The notes below the pieces were generated by a model. The model was not told where the DNA came from, did not search any database, and was given only the letters and a program-made list of their open reading frames with translations. The translations under genes and the position numbers were made by a program. 31,386 nucleotides of DNA from a virus, in IMG/VR virus record IMGVR_UViG_3300030101_002514, positions 1 to 31,386 of that record; one strand, given 5' to 3'. Shown here piece by piece: positions 8,989-31,386 of this stretch (position 1 is its first letter; the number at the start of each line of letters is the position of its first letter).

Positions 8989-9792
8989 CTAAAATAGGTT
9001 TAATTGTTGCTTTGACCAATCGTGACAGATGTCCATAATACGTGATCTTTTTTTAAAATTTATTTCTTTATTAAATAATAGTTTTTCAAAAACAGTTGGT
9101 ATGTTTGAAACCAACTGTAAATTCAAATGTTTTTTTAAATTCAAATCATTAATCTCATCAAAACATTTACGTATTAAATATTTTTCTTGTGGTTTATTTA
9201 TTTCAGACCAATCATATTGTATAAAATAATTAAATACTTTTTCATTAATATATGGTGCAATTAATATTTTTTTGTATTCTTTACTTAACATTTTAAGTTG
9301 TTCAACGCCTGCAGGATTATCACTTGAAAAATATTTTTTACGAAACTTATCAAATTCTATTTTAGTATGTATATGATTTATCATTGCAGATTTGCTCAAT
9401 CCGTAATGACCATCTGCGGCGACACCTGAAATAATTACTTTTTCTTCAATGCAAGGAAACACATACAAGAAAGGCCATGTACACTCAAACTGCGTTTTTT
9501 TCTTACATTTATATTTATTAGATAATTTTTTAAAATCATTAATAATGTTTTTATCAGAAACAGATATTTTTGTAAACTTAATATTGTGTTTTTTACATAT
9601 TTCTTCAGCTTTTTTTGAATCATATGTTTCTATGTTGTTTACATAAAAAGTATAAGCGTGAATCTTTAAATTCAATCTTTTTGCTGTAAATAAACAACTA
9701 CTGCTGTCAACACCACCAGATAATAAAATTGCTACTTGTTTATTATTTTTAACATCTTTTCTTATAATTTCATATAATATTTTATCTATCAT
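8989..9792 (-). CDS. Asparagine-synthetase-like PP-loop amidoligase without glutaminase domain
   Basis: 267 residues. The PP-loop S-G-G-V-D-S-S lies at 25-31, followed by a Rossmann-like strand pattern, and S-G-V-A-A-D-G-H-Y-G at 122-131 matches the S-G-x-G-A-D-E-x-x-G-G motif of AsnB synthetase domains. Family members activate a carboxylate as acyl-adenylate and transfer nitrogen or an amine to it (asparagine, beta-lactam and carbapenam synthetases). The N-terminal class II glutaminase domain of true AsnB is absent, so the amine donor would be ammonia or another amine. It is the last large gene of the operon with the CmoA-like enzyme and DNA methyltransferase, and its ATG overlaps the resolvase stop codon (ATGA, 9789-9792). 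I infer that it amidates a carboxylated base. Other PP-loop roles such as tRNA modification remain possible. Confidence 0.75.
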   Translation of the reverse strand: MIDKILYEIIRKDVKNNKQVAILLSGGVDSSSCLFTAKRLNLKIHAYTFYVNNIETYDSKKAEEICKKHNIKFTKISVSDKNIINDFKKLSNKYKCKKKTQFECTWPFLYVFPCIEEKVIISGVAADGHYGLSKSAMINHIHTKIEFDKFRKKYFSSDNPAGVEQLKMLSKEYKKILIAPYINEKVFNYFIQYDWSEINKPQEKYLIRKCFDEINDLNLKKHLNLQLVSNIPTVFEKLLFNKEINFKKRSRIMDICHDWSKQQLNLF

Positions 9793-10133
9793 ATAGAAAA
9801 TATTTTATGATAAATTAACATTTCAACAAGTTCATGAAAATCGTTTTTTTGCATTATGATATATTCGCCGTCATTTTTTCTTTTATGATAAATAATTTTG
9901 TAATCATCTATATCTGATTGCATCTCTTTAAATATTTTATGATATGACGGATTATTTATTAAAGACTTACATTGTATCGCAAACGGCTTAGTATTAACAA
10001 GATCAATTTTTCTGTCATCCATCATCTTAGACGCATAACGTGAAGTCTCGCAGTTTGACCAACCGAGTTCTCTATATTCTCTGCGAATTTGTCTCTCGTA
10101 ATCGTGTCCCTTTCTTCTGTTTGTGTTTGACAT
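9789..10133 (-). CDS. Holliday-junction-resolvase-like nuclease (PD-(D/E)XK)
   Basis: 114 residues. R-R-K-G-H-D-Y-E13-R-Q-I-R-R at the N-terminus, then D-D-R-K-I-D44-L-V and F-A-I-Q-C-K56 form the E...D...(E/Q)-x-K constellation of archaeal/phage Hjc-type resolvases. In this family Q-x-K commonly replaces E-x-K. It would cut branched DNA during replication and recombination before packaging. Its gene is coupled to the downstream PP-loop gene by an ATGA overlap. The fold assignment is strong; junction specificity is inferred from resemblance. Confidence 0.78.
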   Translation of the reverse strand: MSNTNRRKGHDYERQIRREYRELGWSNCETSRYASKMMDDRKIDLVNTKPFAIQCKSLINNPSYHKIFKEMQSDIDDYKIIYHKRKNDGEYIIMQKNDFHELVEMLIYHKIFSI

Positions 10134-10197
10134 ATAATATACTTAAAAGAGCTATTAAGCAAATAGCTATAAATTTAATTAATCTTTTTTTTATCAT
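10072..10197 (-). CDS. Possible tiny membrane protein (41 aa) overlapping two genes
   Basis: ATG at 10197 opens 41 codons: K-K-R-L-I-K, then about 16 hydrophobic residues (FIAICLIALLSILYV), then a basic tail. It spans the otherwise non-coding gap 10134-10174 but overlaps the upstream gene by 23 bases and the resolvase gene by 62. The membrane segment resembles other tiny membrane peptides of this phage. The large overlap keeps confidence low. The hairpin at 10150-10168 lies inside it, and the two explanations compete. Confidence 0.28.
   Translation of the reverse strand: MIKKRLIKFIAICLIALLSILYVKHKQKKGTRLRETNSQRI
10150..10168 (-). terminator. Hairpin between small gene and resolvase gene
   Basis: AGCTATT (10150-10156) and AATAGCT (10162-10168) form a perfect 7-bp stem with a 5-base loop. 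In the minus direction it is followed by CTTTTAAG. It may be a weak terminator or attenuator partway along the leftward operon. Confidence 0.4.
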
Positions 10198-10501
10198 CTC
10201 TTTCAACGAAAAGTGCGTAACCTAGATAACAGTAATTAATCACGTCTGCAAATCTAGAATGTATGGGCTCTGACTTTTTTAAATTTGCGTTCTTCATGTG
10301 TGCCATGATACTCTGTAAATGTTTTTCAAAAAAAACTCCCCATACTCGTAATTCAGAAATATCTAATCTCTCTGCTGTTTCTTTGAAATTATGCAGTACA
10401 TCTAAGTCTTCATTTGTGTACTCTGGTCTTTTATTCTGCATAATATCAAAGCTGTAATCATTTAATTGTTTTACTAACTTGTCAAATTCTTTTTGTGTCA
10501 T
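10175..10501 (-). CDS. All-helical phage protein with SEPIxxRxxDxxNY signature (108 aa)
   Basis: 108 residues, predicted all-alpha. It has an R-P-E-Y-T-N-E-D-L-D-V-L-H-N-F-K segment, V-W-G-V-F-F-E-K-H-L-Q-S-I, and a closing S-E-P-I-H-S-R-F-A-D-V-I-N-Y-C-Y-L. I remember this S-E-P-I-x-x-R-x-x-D-x-x-N-Y arrangement from a widespread but uncharacterised phage family. The conserved E, K-H, R-x-x-D and N-Y positions faintly recall all-alpha NTP pyrophosphatase (MazG-like) or nucleotide-modification-associated domains, but I cannot confirm that. Its ATG overlaps the upstream gene's stop by four bases. A nucleotide-handling role would suit the operon and remains inference. Confidence 0.68.
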   Translation of the reverse strand: MTQKEFDKLVKQLNDYSFDIMQNKRPEYTNEDLDVLHNFKETAERLDISELRVWGVFFEKHLQSIMAHMKNANLKKSEPIHSRFADVINYCYLGYALFVERDDKKKIN

Positions 10502-10743
10502 AATACTTTTTTTAATATGTCATATTTAACTTCATCTAATTCTTTGATTTTGCTTAAAAGAATCAACTGTTCTTGTTTTGCTTTTGCTCTTTCTTCGTCA
10601 GTAGAATCTATACCAAGATTACATTCAATGTTCGCCATAGCTTTCATGAGTGCATCTATCTTTGCTTTTGTTTGTTTGTTAGTGTTGTAACTACCAAACA
10701 GTTTTCGTTTTTCGTTTTGTGATAATTCGTCTGTTGTTACCAT
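10498..10743 (-). CDS. Small helical hypothetical protein (81 aa)
   Basis: 81 residues, charged and helical. The K-Q-T-K-A-K-I-D-A-L-M-K-A-M segment and the C-terminal L-S-K-I-K-E-L-D-E-V-K-Y-D-I-L-K-K suggest a coiled coil. The ATG shares one base with the methyltransferase stop (TAATG), and its end overlaps the next gene, so it is translated as part of the same coupled series. No family recognised. It could be an accessory subunit for its neighbours, but nothing in the sequence shows this. Confidence 0.66.
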   Translation of the reverse strand: MVTTDELSQNEKRKLFGSYNTNKQTKAKIDALMKAMANIECNLGIDSTDEERAKAKQEQLILLSKIKELDEVKYDILKKVL

Positions 10744-11822
10744 TATTTTAAAATTGTGTTATAAATATGCTTTGCTATTGCATACATCATCAGAGGAGGT
10801 ACGCTTCTGCCTAGTCTCTCCCATTTCTTAGCGAATGTTTCGCCGAGATAATAGTCATAAGGAAAGCTACACACACTCTTTAATTCGTCAATAGTCAAAG
10901 TTCTTTTTATATGTGGGTGCCATAGTTCAGCACTTGTTGTTACAGTTCTACATGGTTTATTTGCGTCAAGACGTATGCGTCCTGCACCACTGATCTTTTC
11001 TTTTATTCTATCACCACAAGCTAACATACTTTCGCCAGGCTGTTGAAGATCATATACTCTTTGCTGTTCTTTAGATAATTTTTTATAAGAACTATCTATT
11101 TCTATCTTAATATTATCAATGACTTCTTGAATAGTTATTTTATCTTTTATCTTTTCGGGATACGTTATGTTCTTCAGTATATCGTTACGAACACCTATAA
11201 ATATTATTCTTTCTCTAGCTTGTGGCACATAATAATCACTTGAATCTAATACTCTATATTCTACGCTGTAACCACAAGAAATTAAATTATAATAAATTGT
11301 TTTTTTATGTTCGTCAAATATATGTGTTTGTGCTGAACCAAGAAGATTTTGTGATGCACCCATAGTGAGACCTTTTACGTTTTCAGCTACAAAAACTCTT
11401 GGCTGTACATCTCTGACTAATCTTGCAAATTCAAAAAACAAATCATCTGTTCTCTGTACTGTGTCTGAATATTTTTTTTCTTGACCCCATGCTTTTTCTC
11501 GTAAACCCGCCATGCTAAAAGAAGCACAAGGTGGAGAACCGTCAAGAATATCAAGTTCACCTTTTTTAATATTTAATTCTTTAAATATATCTTCTGCTTT
11601 TAATTGTCTCACATCTTGTGTGAAGATATGCGTGTCTGGATAATTCTTAGCATAACATTCATAAGCGTCTTTTATAAATTCATTTATTGCAAGTATGTTA
11701 CCACCTGCCAATCTGTAGCCAGTAGATGAGCCGCCACAACCTGCAAATAATGATATGACTTTGAAAAAATTTTGTTGACTTTTTCGTTTTACTAAATCTA
11801 AACTATAATTAAATGGTTTCAT
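10743..11822 (-). CDS. C5-cytosine DNA methyltransferase with Arg in motif X (candidate carboxymethyltransferase)
   Basis: 359 residues with all core motifs of C5 enzymes: motif I L-F-A-G-C-G-G (25-31), motif IV G-S-P-P-C99-A-S-F-S with the catalytic Cys, motif VI E147-N-V, motif VIII Q201-A-R-E-R, a target-recognition region at about 215-310, and motif X near the end. Motif X normally reads G-N-(S/A)-V. Here it is G338-R339-S-V-P-P; the codon at 10808-10806 is AGA, so Asn cannot arise from a single base error. A Lys at the equivalent Asn (N374) of M.MpeI confers use of carboxy-SAM and yields 5-carboxymethylcytosine. The upstream gene encodes a carboxy-SAM synthase homologue, coupled by an ATGA overlap (11819-11822). 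I see no partner restriction enzyme. The C5 family is certain; carboxymethyl transfer is inferred. Confidence 0.95.
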   Translation of the reverse strand: MKPFNYSLDLVKRKSQQNFFKVISLFAGCGGSSTGYRLAGGNILAINEFIKDAYECYAKNYPDTHIFTQDVRQLKAEDIFKELNIKKGELDILDGSPPCASFSMAGLREKAWGQEKKYSDTVQRTDDLFFEFARLVRDVQPRVFVAENVKGLTMGASQNLLGSAQTHIFDEHKKTIYYNLISCGYSVEYRVLDSSDYYVPQARERIIFIGVRNDILKNITYPEKIKDKITIQEVIDNIKIEIDSSYKKLSKEQQRVYDLQQPGESMLACGDRIKEKISGAGRIRLDANKPCRTVTTSAELWHPHIKRTLTIDELKSVCSFPYDYYLGETFAKKWERLGRSVPPLMMYAIAKHIYNTILK

Positions 11823-12487
11823 TTTATTAAAATCCAGCTTTTAAAATTAAGAGATTGAAAAAAACATTTAATCTTTTTAAAACCTGCTTCGTAAAACATA
11901 TTTAAATTTTCTTTTTCACTTAATGGTCTCATGAGACATCTTAGATCAATTTGTTTTTCTAAAATTTCTTTATGTGTAAAATTTTTAAGTTTTTGATCAT
12001 AATGTGTAAATGTAAATATGTCTTCTAAAAAACCATCATCTATATATATTTTTTCAGCAATGATACAAGCACCACCTTTATTGAGATTTTTACAAACTTT
12101 TTTTAACAATTTTTCTCTCTGCGATATTTCTAAAAATTGTAATGTAAATATCAATAGTATAAAATTTGTGTTATAAAATTTTATTCTATCATCTGTTATG
12201 TCTCTTAAATAAAAAGAAAGATTCTTAGAAGATGTTTCTTTTAATAGATTATCTGATATGTCGTAGCCTACGAATGATGCGTTGTTTTTATTTTGTTTAT
12301 GTAACTGTTTTAGAAGAAGGCCTGTAGAACAACCAAGATCATATACGTTTGAATTTTTAGTTATAAAATATGTTGATATTTTTTGTATTAAATCAATTAA
12401 AGAATGATAATTAGATACACTTTTATTTATGTGATCATCAAAATTATCTATCGTATCAAAGCTGAAGTTCTGTTTGTTTGTTTTCAT
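11819..12487 (-). CDS. cmoA: CmoA-like carboxy-S-adenosylmethionine synthase homologue
   Basis: 222 residues, collinear with bacterial CmoA (about 247 aa). Matching segments are H-I-N-K-S-V-S-N-Y near the start, V-Y-D-L-G-C-S-T-G (48-56, SAM-binding), F-T-L-Q-F-L-E (114-120), L-N-K-G-G-A-C-I-I-A-E-K (135-146), H-Y-D-Q-K (162-166), A-G-F (201-203) and the ending F-F-Q-S-L-N-F-K-S-W. CmoA converts SAM and prephenate into carboxy-SAM, normally for tRNA wobble-uridine modification together with CmoB, which is absent here. By my alignment E. coli Arg199, which contacts the carboxylate, corresponds to Gln179; Arg183 lies one helical turn on and might substitute. The next gene is a DNA methyltransferase with a substitution suited to carboxy-SAM, so supplying that cofactor is the likely role. 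Use as an ordinary SAM methyltransferase cannot be excluded. Confidence 0.82.
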   Translation of the reverse strand: MKTNKQNFSFDTIDNFDDHINKSVSNYHSLIDLIQKISTYFITKNSNVYDLGCSTGLLLKQLHKQNKNNASFVGYDISDNLLKETSSKNLSFYLRDITDDRIKFYNTNFILLIFTLQFLEISQREKLLKKVCKNLNKGGACIIAEKIYIDDGFLEDIFTFTHYDQKLKNFTHKEILEKQIDLRCLMRPLSEKENLNMFYEAGFKKIKCFFQSLNFKSWILIK

Positions 12488-27752: not shown

Positions 27753-30700
27753 ATGGGTACAGCACTTACTGGAAATACTATCGCATCCTCGTATTTAGGA
27801 TTACTAAAATCAACTGATTCATTAGCAATAGGCACATCAGCAAAAAGAATTACTGATGGTGCAGGAAATGATTTACCAATAAAACTTACAACAACTCAAA
27901 TGTTTTTTAATGTGGGTAGTGTTTCAGCTCCTGCATTATCTTTTGATGGTAATAGTTCAGAAGGTTTTTATATGCCTGATGATGAGACATTAGCAATAAC
28001 ACTTGGTGCTAATGAAAGAGTAAGATTTTTTCCTAGTGGTAAGTTGAAATTAAATAATTATGGTGGTGGTTCTTTTACTGGTACAGTCACACAAAGACTT
28101 GGTGTAACTTCATCAGGTGAAGTCGTAGAAATACCTATTGGTTCAGGTGCTGTTGATGGTTCAGGTACAGCAGGAAAACTAGCAAAATTCACGGATTCAG
28201 ATACGCTTGGTGATTCTCTATTAACTGAAAGTACAAATAGTGTTAGTTTAGCTGATAATAAAGAATTAATACTTGGTAATGATTCTGATTTAACAATAAA
28301 ACATTCAAGCACTGGTAACCAAAACTCAATTAAAAGCGACACTCATCAATTATTTATAACTTCTGATGTGGGTATGGAATTAGCTGATAATGGTGGTAAA
28401 TCATACTTTGAAGCTACGGAGGGTGGAAGTTCAAGATTATTTTTTAATAATTCGAAAAAAATAGAAACAACTAATACTGGAGCGGACATAACTGGAACAA
28501 TAACAACAACTGGTAGCGTATCAGTAGGAGATTCTATAACTCTTGCAGATAATAATAAAATAAAGCTAGGTAGTAGTGCAGATTTAGAAATCTATCACGA
28601 TGGTAGTAATAGTTATATCGATGAGGGAGGAACTGGTGGATTATTGTTAGAATCGAATTCGTATATATATTTACAAACAAGTAATGGAGGTGCTTATACT
28701 GGTAGATTTATAAATGGTGGTGCAGTTGAATTATATCATAACGGAAATAAAAAATTTTCAACAACAAGTACAGGAACAACGACTACTGGCGATGGTATTT
28801 TTACAGGCTCTGTTGCTATAGGAGGAACATCACCCGATGAAAGTCTACATATCACAAATAGTAGCGGAGCTAACATTATTTTAAATTCTGATGCAAATAC
28901 GGCAGATAGTGGTATATATATGTCAGAGGGGGCAGATGCTACGCCAACTCAAAATGGTGCTTATCTTCATTATGATGCAAGTGCAAATGAGTTCAAAATT
29001 GCAACTGGTGGGAGTTCACTTACAGATAGGTTTACAATAGCAAGAGATACTGGCAACGCAACTTTTGCAGGAGATGTATTTGTAAGTCAATCAAATACAG
29101 ATGCGGTACCCACAAATAATCTTTCAGGAGATGAATTGTTAAATATTAGCAATAATGATAATTCAGGTGTTTATTCAGCTTTAAAATTTAGAACTAGAAC
29201 AAGTGGTGCGGCTCATTCATTAGTAGGTTTAAGAATGGACTCTGATTATACTGATGCTAAATTTTTTATAAGACTAAGAAATGCAGGATTAACTTCTCAA
29301 GAAGTTTTTAATGTAGGTAATACGGGTGCAACTTTTGCAGGTAATCTAGCTTTAAATGGTTTAACAAATAGTGATTTTGATGCTGATGCTGATAATTTAG
29401 TATTAGGTGCGAGTAGTGGAAACGCAGGACTAACTATTTTTTCAGGTTCAAGTGCAAATAATTTTGGCAGTATTTATTTTGCAGATGGCACAACAACTAC
29501 AGCTAAAAAAGCAGGTTTTATCAGATACGAGCAGAATACTTCTGAGATGACGTTTGGAATAAATGCAGTACAAAAATTAAATATTGCACTTGATGGTACT
29601 GCAACTTTTAGTGGAAATGTTTTGATAGGTAAAACTGCTAATGCTATAGGTGGTGCAGGGGTTGTTATAAGAAAAGCTGGTGAAATATTTTCTACAAGAG
29701 CAGGGGATGTTGCAGGATTTAACAGATTGACAACGGATGGTAATATTGTTCAGTTTTACAAGGATGGTTCAGTAGTTGGAGCTATAGGCACACAAAAATG
29801 GGGCATTGGTGAAGCGAATCCAGATTTACAGCTTCATATCAAAAATACTGCAACTGGTAATACTGGTATTGCTATTGAAAATACAAATAATGCACAGAAT
29901 TTAGATATAGATTTTTATAGTAATGCAGGTTCAGCACAAGGTAGAATAAGATACGAAGAGGGTGCAGGTGCTTTCAACTTCTCACCTAATGTAAGTTCTC
30001 CTAACGCAATGTATATTAATTTTTCTAATAATATAGGAATTGGAACGACATCGCCTAAACATTATTCGGGAACAACTGGTACAGTTTTATCTATAGATAG
30101 TGCAACTCATAGAGGTATATTAGAATTAAGTGGTGCATCAAATTCTGATGAAGCAATTATTGGTGCAATAACATTTGCTAACACAGAAAACACTTCGGCA
30201 AATGGTGCGTTATCTCAAATTTTTACTTATACAGAGACAAGCGATTCAAATGCAGGAGATGATAGTGGTGGACATCTAGCATTTTTAACTAGACCCGAAG
30301 CAGGTACAATAACAGAACGTATGCGTATTAAATCAACTGGTGCTGTTGAAATAACTGGTTCATCAACAACCACAAACGCTCAAGCTTTTATAACAAATGA
30401 TAATTCAGTTCTAACAATAGGTTCATCAGTTTCGGGTAGCGTTGTCAAAGATATTAGCTTTAATTCACCATCTGCTATGATGTATATTGATGGTAGTACA
30501 TCTCACGTTGGTATCGGAACAACTTCGCCTCAAAGACTTCTTAATTTATCACAAGCAAATGGTGCTAATATAAGATTTGATAATAGTACAACTGGAAGAC
30601 ATTTTGTTATTGGTGAAGGTGTTGGCACAAATGATGTATTTTCATTTAGGGGTCTTTCATATCAAAGTACAGATACATTGTCTATTGATTTTGCTAATGA

Positions 30701-31386
30701 CCGAGTAGGAATTGGAACGATATCACCGTTACATAAATTACACATTTTAGATTCAAGTGATGGTGCTTCAATTTATACTGCTATGTTTCAAAATAATGGA
30801 ACATCAGCTAATACTTCAAGTAAAATTTTATTTGTTCAAGGCGGCAGTACAATAAGAGGTGCTGTTATTGGTGGGTTACAAGAAGCTTCTAGTGGTTCGC
30901 CTACATCAATGGTTTTTGAAACATCTGCTGCTTTTGCTACTCCTACAGAACGTATGCGTATCACATCTACAGGAAACGTAGGAATAAATCAGACTGTACC
31001 AGTTGTGCCGGTTCACATTGTAGGTACTGCTGTAAATAATCCATCTAATGGTACTGGTGGTTATGAAGTTATGCAAGTATTTGATGATACTTCTTATGCT
31101 ACTGGAGTTGGTGGTGGAATAGGACTTGGTGGTAAATTTCATTCTAACGGTACTGATACAATATTCGGAGAGATAAGAGGAATAAAAGAAAACGCTACTG
31201 ATAATAATTATGCTAGTGCTTTGACATTTTCAACAAGAGCAAATGGGGCTAGTATAACAGAGCAAATGAGAATCACTAGTGATGGGAATTTAGGAATAGG
31301 AATTTCAGACCCAACTAATTCTACAAACTACAAAACTTTAGATATAAGAGGAACTTCAGGTGGTCAAATAATATTAGGTAGAACTG
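27753..31386 (+). CDS. Tail fibre, N-terminal part (3' partial, runs off the window)
   Basis: 1211 codons open to the window end with no stop; the C-terminal part of the same gene is at 1-1653. The start M-G-T-A-L-T-G-N-T-I-A-S-S-Y-L-G-L-L-K-S is a common fibre N-terminus in aquatic phages, presumably attaching to the tail. The rest is repetitive beta-structure rich in G, S, T, N and D. Recurring units such as N-x-L-S-G/A-G-D/N-V and T-E-R-M-R-I-x-S-x-G-x-V-G-I-G-T-x-x-P give roughly 20-residue rungs. The combined known length is at least 1761 residues, a very long fibre. The last base of the window is the first of a codon while base 1 is also a first position, so some sequence (length 2 modulo 3) is missing between the ends. 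Confidence 0.9.
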   Translation, partial: MGTALTGNTIASSYLGLLKSTDSLAIGTSAKRITDGAGNDLPIKLTTTQMFFNVGSVSAPALSFDGNSSEGFYMPDDETLAITLGANERVRFFPSGKLKLNNYGGGSFTGTVTQRLGVTSSGEVVEIPIGSGAVDGSGTAGKLAKFTDSDTLGDSLLTESTNSVSLADNKELILGNDSDLTIKHSSTGNQNSIKSDTHQLFITSDVGMELADNGGKSYFEATEGGSSRLFFNNSKKIETTNTGADITGTITTTGSVSVGDSITLADNNKIKLGSSADLEIYHDGSNSYIDEGGTGGLLLESNSYIYLQTSNGGAYTGRFINGGAVELYHNGNKKFSTTSTGTTTTGDGIFTGSVAIGGTSPDESLHITNSSGANIILNSDANTADSGIYMSEGADATPTQNGAYLHYDASANEFKIATGGSSLTDRFTIARDTGNATFAGDVFVSQSNTDAVPTNNLSGDELLNISNNDNSGVYSALKFRTRTSGAAHSLVGLRMDSDYTDAKFFIRLRNAGLTSQEVFNVGNTGATFAGNLALNGLTNSDFDADADNLVLGASSGNAGLTIFSGSSANNFGSIYFADGTTTTAKKAGFIRYEQNTSEMTFGINAVQKLNIALDGTATFSGNVLIGKTANAIGGAGVVIRKAGEIFSTRAGDVAGFNRLTTDGNIVQFYKDGSVVGAIGTQKWGIGEANPDLQLHIKNTATGNTGIAIENTNNAQNLDIDFYSNAGSAQGRIRYEEGAGAFNFSPNVSSPNAMYINFSNNIGIGTTSPKHYSGTTGTVLSIDSATHRGILELSGASNSDEAIIGAITFANTENTSANGALSQIFTYTETSDSNAGDDSGGHLAFLTRPEAGTITERMRIKSTGAVEITGSSTTTNAQAFITNDNSVLTIGSSVSGSVVKDISFNSPSAMMYIDGSTSHVGIGTTSPQRLLNLSQANGANIRFDNSTTGRHFVIGEGVGTNDVFSFRGLSYQSTDTLSIDFANDRVGIGTISPLHKLHILDSSDGASIYTAMFQNNGTSANTSSKILFVQGGSTIRGAVIGGLQEASSGSPTSMVFETSAAFATPTERMRITSTGNVGINQTVPVVPVHIVGTAVNNPSNGTGGYEVMQVFDDTSYATGVGGGIGLGGKFHSNGTDTIFGEIRGIKENATDNNYASALTFSTRANGASITEQMRITSDGNLGIGISDPTNSTNYKTLDIRGTSGGQIILGRT
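30159..30328 (+). repeat. Second copy of the fibre direct repeat (see 1-170)
   Basis: Matches bases 1-170 at 168 of 170 positions, in the same codon phase. The flanking sequence differs completely downstream (A-T-T-A-A-A-T-C-A here versus A-T-A-G-A-T-T-C-T). Confidence 0.9.

Follow-up and report, generated by a model that had tools for sequence, protein, structure and literature searches.

A motif X arginine beside a CmoA-like gene points to DNA cytosine carboxymethylation in an HK97-type phage

Why should a viral DNA cytosine C5 methyltransferase carry an arginine in place of the asparagine of motif X, directly beside a gene that resembles a carboxy-SAM synthase? The locus that raises this question lies in a virus record of 31,386 bases, the whole of which was analysed and is referred to here as the window. 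The record carries HK97-type head and tail genes (terminase, portal, head protease, capsid and tape measure) and, in minus-strand order, a CmoA-like gene, the C5 methyltransferase gene, three small ORFs and an asparagine-synthetase-like gene, with the CmoA, CmoX and CmoY homologues on one strand and within a span of at most 3.5 kb. By analogy with a characterized phage system, we consider that the genes of this locus in all likelihood specify a CmoA-CmoX-CmoY pathway for the hypermodification of phage DNA. The features concerned are as follows, L001 being the locus of the closest relative.

8989-9792, minus strand: CmoY-like ATP-dependent amide ligase homologue, 267 aa, with an SGGVDS loop (PF00733, identity to SpCmoY)
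9789-10133, minus strand: small PDDEXK / RusA-like phage nuclease gene (phrog_244, 5.9e-12)
10175-10501, minus strand: 108-aa ORF between the CmoX and CmoY genes, conserved in L001 (ORF list)
10498-10743, minus strand: 81-aa ORF directly after the CmoX gene, conserved in L001 (ORF list)
10743-11822, minus strand: CmoX-type DNA cytosine C5-carboxymethyltransferase homologue, 359 aa (PF00145, 8YF3 match, AF2 fold)
10806-10808, minus strand: codon AGA for Arg339 in motif X, equivalent to SpCmoX Arg350 and HhaI Asn304 (sequence, alignment)
11526-11537, minus strand: motif IV SPPC, residues 96-99, with the predicted catalytic Cys99, SpCmoX Cys98 (alignment)
11819-12487, minus strand: CmoA-like carboxy-SAM synthase homologue, 222 aa (TIGR00740, E. 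coli CmoA 4gek match)

The plus strand reads TCT at 10806-10808 and hence AGA on the minus strand, and re-reading the sequence confirmed exactly that this is codon 339 of the ORF and encodes an arginine in motif X of a C5 methyltransferase homologue. The residue stands in the context ...KKWERLGRSVPPLMMYAIAKHIY, its codon falls within ERLGRSVPPLMM, and motif X reads ERLGRSVPP, with G-R-S-V where the canonical motif has G-N-[SA]-V. The ORF encodes a full-length C5 methylase (PF00145, 4.9e-53, residues 20-354; TIGR00675, 8.5e-49, above the cut-off) with SPPC as its motif IV. A sequence-only reading of this DNA had described the replaced asparagine as conserved, which is correct for the C5 family as a whole but not for the SPPC sub-family, where the column is not fixed and holds Asn, Met, Leu or Arg according to clade. 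The same reading had placed AGA more than one change away from the Asn codons, and it is indeed two changes from AAC and AAT. It had also thought decay or a sequencing slip unlikely, and we reject both, and chance as well, because the column is Arg in all 91 readable methyltransferases from the 80 viral loci that best match a CmoX-type profile and is invariant across our 27-row alignment A8.

A mechanism for such an arginine has been published, in the one paper on this kind of system that our literature search retrieved. In the Synechococcus phage S-B43, CmoA is reported to make carboxy-SAM (Cx-SAM), SpCmoX to place a carboxymethyl group on C5 of cytosine, giving 5-carboxymethylcytosine, and SpCmoY to attach glycine to that group (Yang et al., Nat Commun, December 2025; PMC12783734). 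In the crystal structure of SpCmoX with Cx-SAM (8YF3), Arg350, at the position of HhaI Asn304, is in contact with the carboxymethyl group; the wild-type enzyme accepts Cx-SAM as its sole cofactor, and R350N is inactive with both SAM and Cx-SAM (PMC12783734). The proposal that an arginine replacing the motif X asparagine engages the carboxylate of the carboxy-SAM that the adjacent CmoA provides has thus been demonstrated for a homologue, and Arg339 of the window enzyme aligns to Arg350. It follows that the window enzyme is not the first natural case, since the mechanism was already published for SpCmoX, and it is from this work that we infer the enzymatic activities of the window proteins (PMC12783734).

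Several lines of evidence tie the window enzyme to SpCmoX. By sequence, 8YF3 is its best solved relative (phmmer E 4.6e-66, the next at 5e-20). The AF2 model (pLDDT 88.4, pTM 0.90) finds 8YF3 at Foldseek rank 1 and superposes on this Cx-SAM complex with a VIA-align Z of 40.4 and an rmsd of 2.0 A over 313 residues, the next structure reaching Z 33.1, so that, at the level of the overall superposition, the modelling check suggested by the sequence-only reading came out in favour of its proposal. In the alignment, SpCmoX F25, E47, F48 and D69 are identical to window F26, E48, F49 and D70, S95-C98 to S96-C99, and the residues of motifs VI and VIII are identical too. The two enzymes thus share SPPC, the motif X arginine, all mapped Cx-SAM contacts, the fold and CmoA and CmoY homologues alongside, and by this strong homology Arg339 is very probably functional. 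The similarity is uneven, however, with 40% identity overall, 51% in the catalytic core and 21% in the target-recognition region, and because of this last value the GC target of SpCmoX cannot be assumed for the window enzyme; the dinucleotide ratios of the window (observed/expected GC 1.2, CG 0.69) are uninformative on the target. The gene order differs as well, CmoY lying about 1 kb past CmoX in the window and between CmoA and CmoX in S-B43, and so does the phage, HK97-type with a 31-kb record as opposed to a 214-kb cyanophage. The published screen of IMG/VR v4, UniProtKB and MGnify for SPPC plus an arginine at the R350 position gave 5,615 candidates (PMC12783734); the window enzyme has both features and may already be among them, because its record comes from IMG/VR, one of the screened sources. 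The kind of enzyme is already known, and the window member is new to the searches made here.

The canonical C5 methyltransferases HhaI and HaeIII resemble the window enzyme in fold, catalytic cysteine and motif order, but have Asn at motif X and lack a CmoA partner. An engineered parallel is M.MpeI N374K, a carboxymethyltransferase with Lys at motif X that is mentioned in PMC12783734; there too a basic motif X residue permits the use of carboxy-SAM, but the enzyme is engineered, has Lys and targets CG. The sequence-only reading had invoked this lysine variant, rightly according to that mention, and had assumed the same for arginine; our literature search found no report of N374R.

The neighbouring gene, which had been called a carboxy-SAM synthase homologue, bears out that name. 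Among NCBIfam models it matches TIGR00740 best (3.9e-36, 124.9 bits), and because this score does not reach the equivalog cut-off of 193.3 bits we call the protein CmoA-like and not a TIGR00740 equivalog. SpCmoA, which has been proven active (PMC12783734), likewise stays below the cut-off at 115.6 bits, so that the cut-off does not separate the phage enzymes. The window protein matches E. coli CmoA (4gek) at 3.2e-25, is 34.8% identical to SpCmoA and, besides sharing TIGR00740 as best model with both, keeps the equivalent of Tyr39. E. coli Arg199 (numbered from the 4gek alignment), a residue with a cofactor role, is replaced by Gln179 in the window protein and by Glu in SpCmoA; in each of the two an Arg follows four residues later (Arg183 in the window protein). 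Among the CmoA-like neighbours of Arg-type methyltransferases this second Arg occurs in 81 of 120 with SPPC partners and in 85 of 86 with partners of the GFPC type described below; the 199 position is Arg in 8 of 120 and 0 of 86, respectively. Judging from these alignments, phage CmoA seems to have moved its basic group by one helical turn.

The arrangement of the genes bears on how CmoA is used. The stop of the CmoA-like gene and the start of the CmoX gene share a 4-nt overlap (ATGA), and in S-B43 the three counterparts follow one another directly, likewise overlapping by 4 nt. The closest relative, L001 (2816-5017), with a CmoX 57% and a CmoA 76% identical to those of the window, keeps the pair together and retains the small genes, and in the target-recognition region its CmoX shares only 29% identity with the window enzyme. 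The 108-aa and 81-aa ORFs gave no significant family match to Pfam or NCBIfam profiles. The PDDEXK gene overlaps the start of the CmoY-like gene by 4 nt; we considered it as a part of the pathway and rejected it, because L001 also has the gene yet no CmoY was found there at the matching place, and it is probably phage housekeeping outside the pathway. One could argue that CmoA serves tRNA cmo5U formation, as befits a tRNA-pathway enzyme of Gram-negative bacteria, or drains SAM from SAM-dependent defences, an idea raised as testable in the discussion of PMC12783734, and that the C5 enzyme merely tolerates carboxy-SAM. We regard this as very improbable, given the gene overlap and the preserved pairing in L001, the proven partnership of SpCmoA and SpCmoX (PMC12783734) and the fact that viral loci collected through CmoA hold an Arg-type methyltransferase in 72 of 72 readable cases.

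The sequence-only reading was silent on the amide ligase at 8989-9792, which is a member of the set. It matches the synthetase domain of Asn synthetases (PF00733, 2.6e-13, residues 2-128), and no Pfam model matched a glutaminase domain in it. It is 44.9% identical to SpCmoY over 97% of its length, above the other phage relatives listed, shares with it the ATP-pyrophosphatase loop (PP-loop) SGGVDS, of SGGxDS pattern, and, like this 5cxmC-glycine ligase, consists of the synthetase domain only; no solved relative was found by sequence at E 0.01. The resemblance suggests hypermodification. An alternative is that the pathway ends at 5-carboxymethylcytosine and that the Asn-synthetase-like gene has a role elsewhere or takes another amine in place of glycine. 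This finds some backing in L001, with CmoA and CmoX and no CmoY at the same place, and in the SPPC/Arg ORFs of our scans, 52 of 141 of which have a CmoY-type ligase within 5 kb; on the other side stand the identity to SpCmoY and the lack of a glutaminase domain, a feature reported for the SpCmoY cluster as opposed to the ammonia cluster (PMC12783734), and we consider the alternative possible but rather unlikely. Under the hypermodification pathway that we favour, whose steps are reported for the S-B43 homologues (PMC12783734), the CmoA-like protein would convert SAM and prephenate into carboxy-SAM. Cys99 of the CmoX-type enzyme would attack C6 of the flipped target cytosine, and the enzyme would move the carboxymethyl group from carboxy-SAM to C5, with the contact between Arg339 and the carboxylate selecting carboxy-SAM over SAM. 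The modified product would then shield the phage DNA from host restriction. This virus of bacteria thus very probably puts a small acid group on its DNA cytosines and then builds on it.

We next asked how closely the arginine and CmoA are linked across the family, using five profile queries with the best 80 viral loci for each and counting an ORF as readable when both motifs aligned; alignments were needed, as the window CmoX used by itself as query retrieved only 1 relative from the viral contigs. With the CmoX-type query 91 of 93 ORFs were readable, all of them SPPC/Arg, and 83 of the 91 had CmoA within 5 kb. The CmoA query, where CmoA is present in all loci by construction, gave 72 readable ORFs out of 76, all Arg (45 SPPC, 27 GFPC), and 4 of 80 loci without a methyltransferase. 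By contrast, the Asn-type query (57 of 86 readable) yielded 54 Asn ORFs and 1 Glu ORF, none with CmoA, the remainder being a Met and a Ser ORF, both in L199, that adjoin one CmoA; the Met-type query (80 of 84 readable) yielded 79 Met and 1 Asp, none with CmoA. Pooling these two scans, CmoA was nearby in 2 of 137. The same holds in bacterial and archaeal genomes, where among the best 80 matches to the CmoX profile CmoA lay within 5 kb of 36 of 41 SPPC/Arg genes and of 0 of 18 SPPC/Asn, 0 of 17 SPPC/Met and 0 of 2 GSPC/Asn genes. The correlation with an adjacent cmoA that the sequence-only reading had proposed to check is therefore present in viral and cellular sets alike (83/91 and 36/41 versus 2/137 and 0/35).

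Merging the viral scans, with identical proteins collapsed and loci from named phage records dropped, gave 325 proteins, with CmoA beside 185 of 194 Arg, 0 of 54 Asn, 1 of 74 Met and 1 of 3 other enzymes, a table biased by its inclusion of the CmoA-anchored loci, so that the separate counts are fairer. Restricted to loci with at least 2.5 kb on both sides, CmoA accompanied 66 of 68 Arg enzymes and 2 of 64 others, and the Fisher p of 1.5e-32 overstates the case because the sequences are related and the counts are not events. On an 84-row tree the Arg state changes 3 times, giving 3 independent pairs, too few for significance, in which the expected direction occurred in 2.5 on average and the opposite direction never. 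These data also bear on the reading of the window enzyme as an ordinary 5-methylcytosine methyltransferase with a neutral motif X arginine and an accidental CmoA neighbour. Such a reading can draw on the variability of the column in the SPPC sub-family, where some non-Asn residues occur without CmoA, but CmoA tracks Arg and not Met, Leu or Asn in both the viral and the cellular sets, two separate lineages reached Arg and both did so beside CmoA, and wild-type SpCmoX accepts only Cx-SAM (PMC12783734); we hold it to be extremely unlikely.

The scans also turned up loci with two Arg-type CmoX genes close together (L038, L040, L046, L049, L055, L064, L066, L071, L076, L077, L083 and L087), possibly with different target sequences. 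Moreover, metagenome-assembled genomes of Verrucomicrobia each contain five or six CmoX-CmoA loci, namely L405, L406, L408, L440, L446 and L452 in the single assembly JAKQDD and L434, L441, L443, L447 and L451 in JAOSKK; prophages, mobile elements or a cellular role are possible readings.

Exceptions occur in both directions. Eight Arg-type ORFs in seven viral loci (L010, L011, L050, L063, L065, L078 and L083) have no CmoA nearby, and none was found in the whole records of L010, L011, L063, L065 and L078; here the host might supply carboxy-SAM. Of the 5 among 41 cellular Arg genes without CmoA within 5 kb, L449 just misses the limit, with a CmoA 5.1 kb away. Searches of the genomes found a CmoA outside the neighbourhood for L418 and L432, a weak partial match only for L456 and nothing for L412. 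L199 (4147-6729) misfits the rule: its CmoA-like gene (54.5 bits) is flanked by two methyltransferases, one Met-type and one Ser-type, the motifs being GMTV in one and RCSGIPP in the other.

Within the SPPC clade, an Asn group from Acidobacteriota and Planctomycetota (L420, L428, L458, L461 and L466) nests among Arg rows; no CmoA was found within 5 kb of any of the five, and none at E 1e-6 in the genomes of L420 and L461. Similarly, Methylophilales phage Melnitz-3 (L168), on a long branch within the S-B43 group, has Leu at motif X, and no CmoA was found in its whole 141-kb genome. These six are candidates for natural reversion, the direction of change not being given by unrooted counts. Because the switch of the SPPC clade appears undone, to Asn or Leu, where CmoA is absent, one codon and one neighbouring gene together would mark the cofactor.

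Finally, a second group of Arg-type enzymes stands apart from the SPPC clade. Its members have GFPC as motif IV (GGFPCATFS) and GRTITIP, GRTISIP or GRTVTVS as motif X, which aligns with GNSV of Asn-type phage enzymes. The GFPC/Arg query gave 79 readable ORFs in 80 loci, 79 of 79 with Arg and 77 of 79 with CmoA. One member, L105 (8914-10008), has HhaI as its best solved relative (E 4.1e-47), and its match to 8YF3 is much weaker (4.2e-12). In trees the GFPC/Arg rows nest among Asn-type enzymes; forcing all Arg-type rows into one clade changed the log-likelihood by -238 units with a p-AU of 1.9e-5, on a quick tree of 37 rows that we selected ourselves, and on this test a joint clade is rejected. 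An AF2 model of an enzyme of this lineage was poor (pLDDT 48.5) and was not used. No CmoY-type ligase was seen in the loci of 94 GFPC/Arg ORFs (72 distinct proteins), and in 72 GFPC/Arg loci a gene of one family lies downstream, the representative tested being a ParB_N protein. One such ParB_N-domain protein gene lies downstream of CmoA at L388:5881-7068, and ParBc proteins are reported near many published CmoX genes (PMC12783734). Taken together, the sequence comparisons suggest that DNA cytosine carboxymethyltransferases probably evolved at least twice, in the SPPC/CmoX clade and in an HhaI-like phage Arg lineage encoded beside CmoA, often with a ParB-domain protein and with no CmoY-type ligase, and that the SPPC switch was undone where CmoA is absent. 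Within the papers searchable, the HhaI-like lineage appears not to have been described before, because the published screen required SPPC and the main text of PMC12783734 does not contain 'GFPC'. If true, it would offer a separate source of such enzymes and a clear-cut example of convergence.

More generally, the motif X residue and a neighbouring cmoA predict the cofactor of a DNA methyltransferase, a relation supported here from sequence alone. The window adds an HK97-type phage whose CmoX possibly has a new target sequence, because its target-recognition region has diverged, and a new target would be of use to DNA labelling and sequencing methods based on carboxymethylation. Among the matches listed for terminase and for capsid (ten each), none exceeds 35% identity, and all come from phages whose hosts are unrelated. 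Elsewhere in the window, the ORF at 1-1653 repeats the stretch IGAITFANTENTSANGALSQIF...ERMRI, which is also found inside the tail-fibre-like ORF at 27753-31385.
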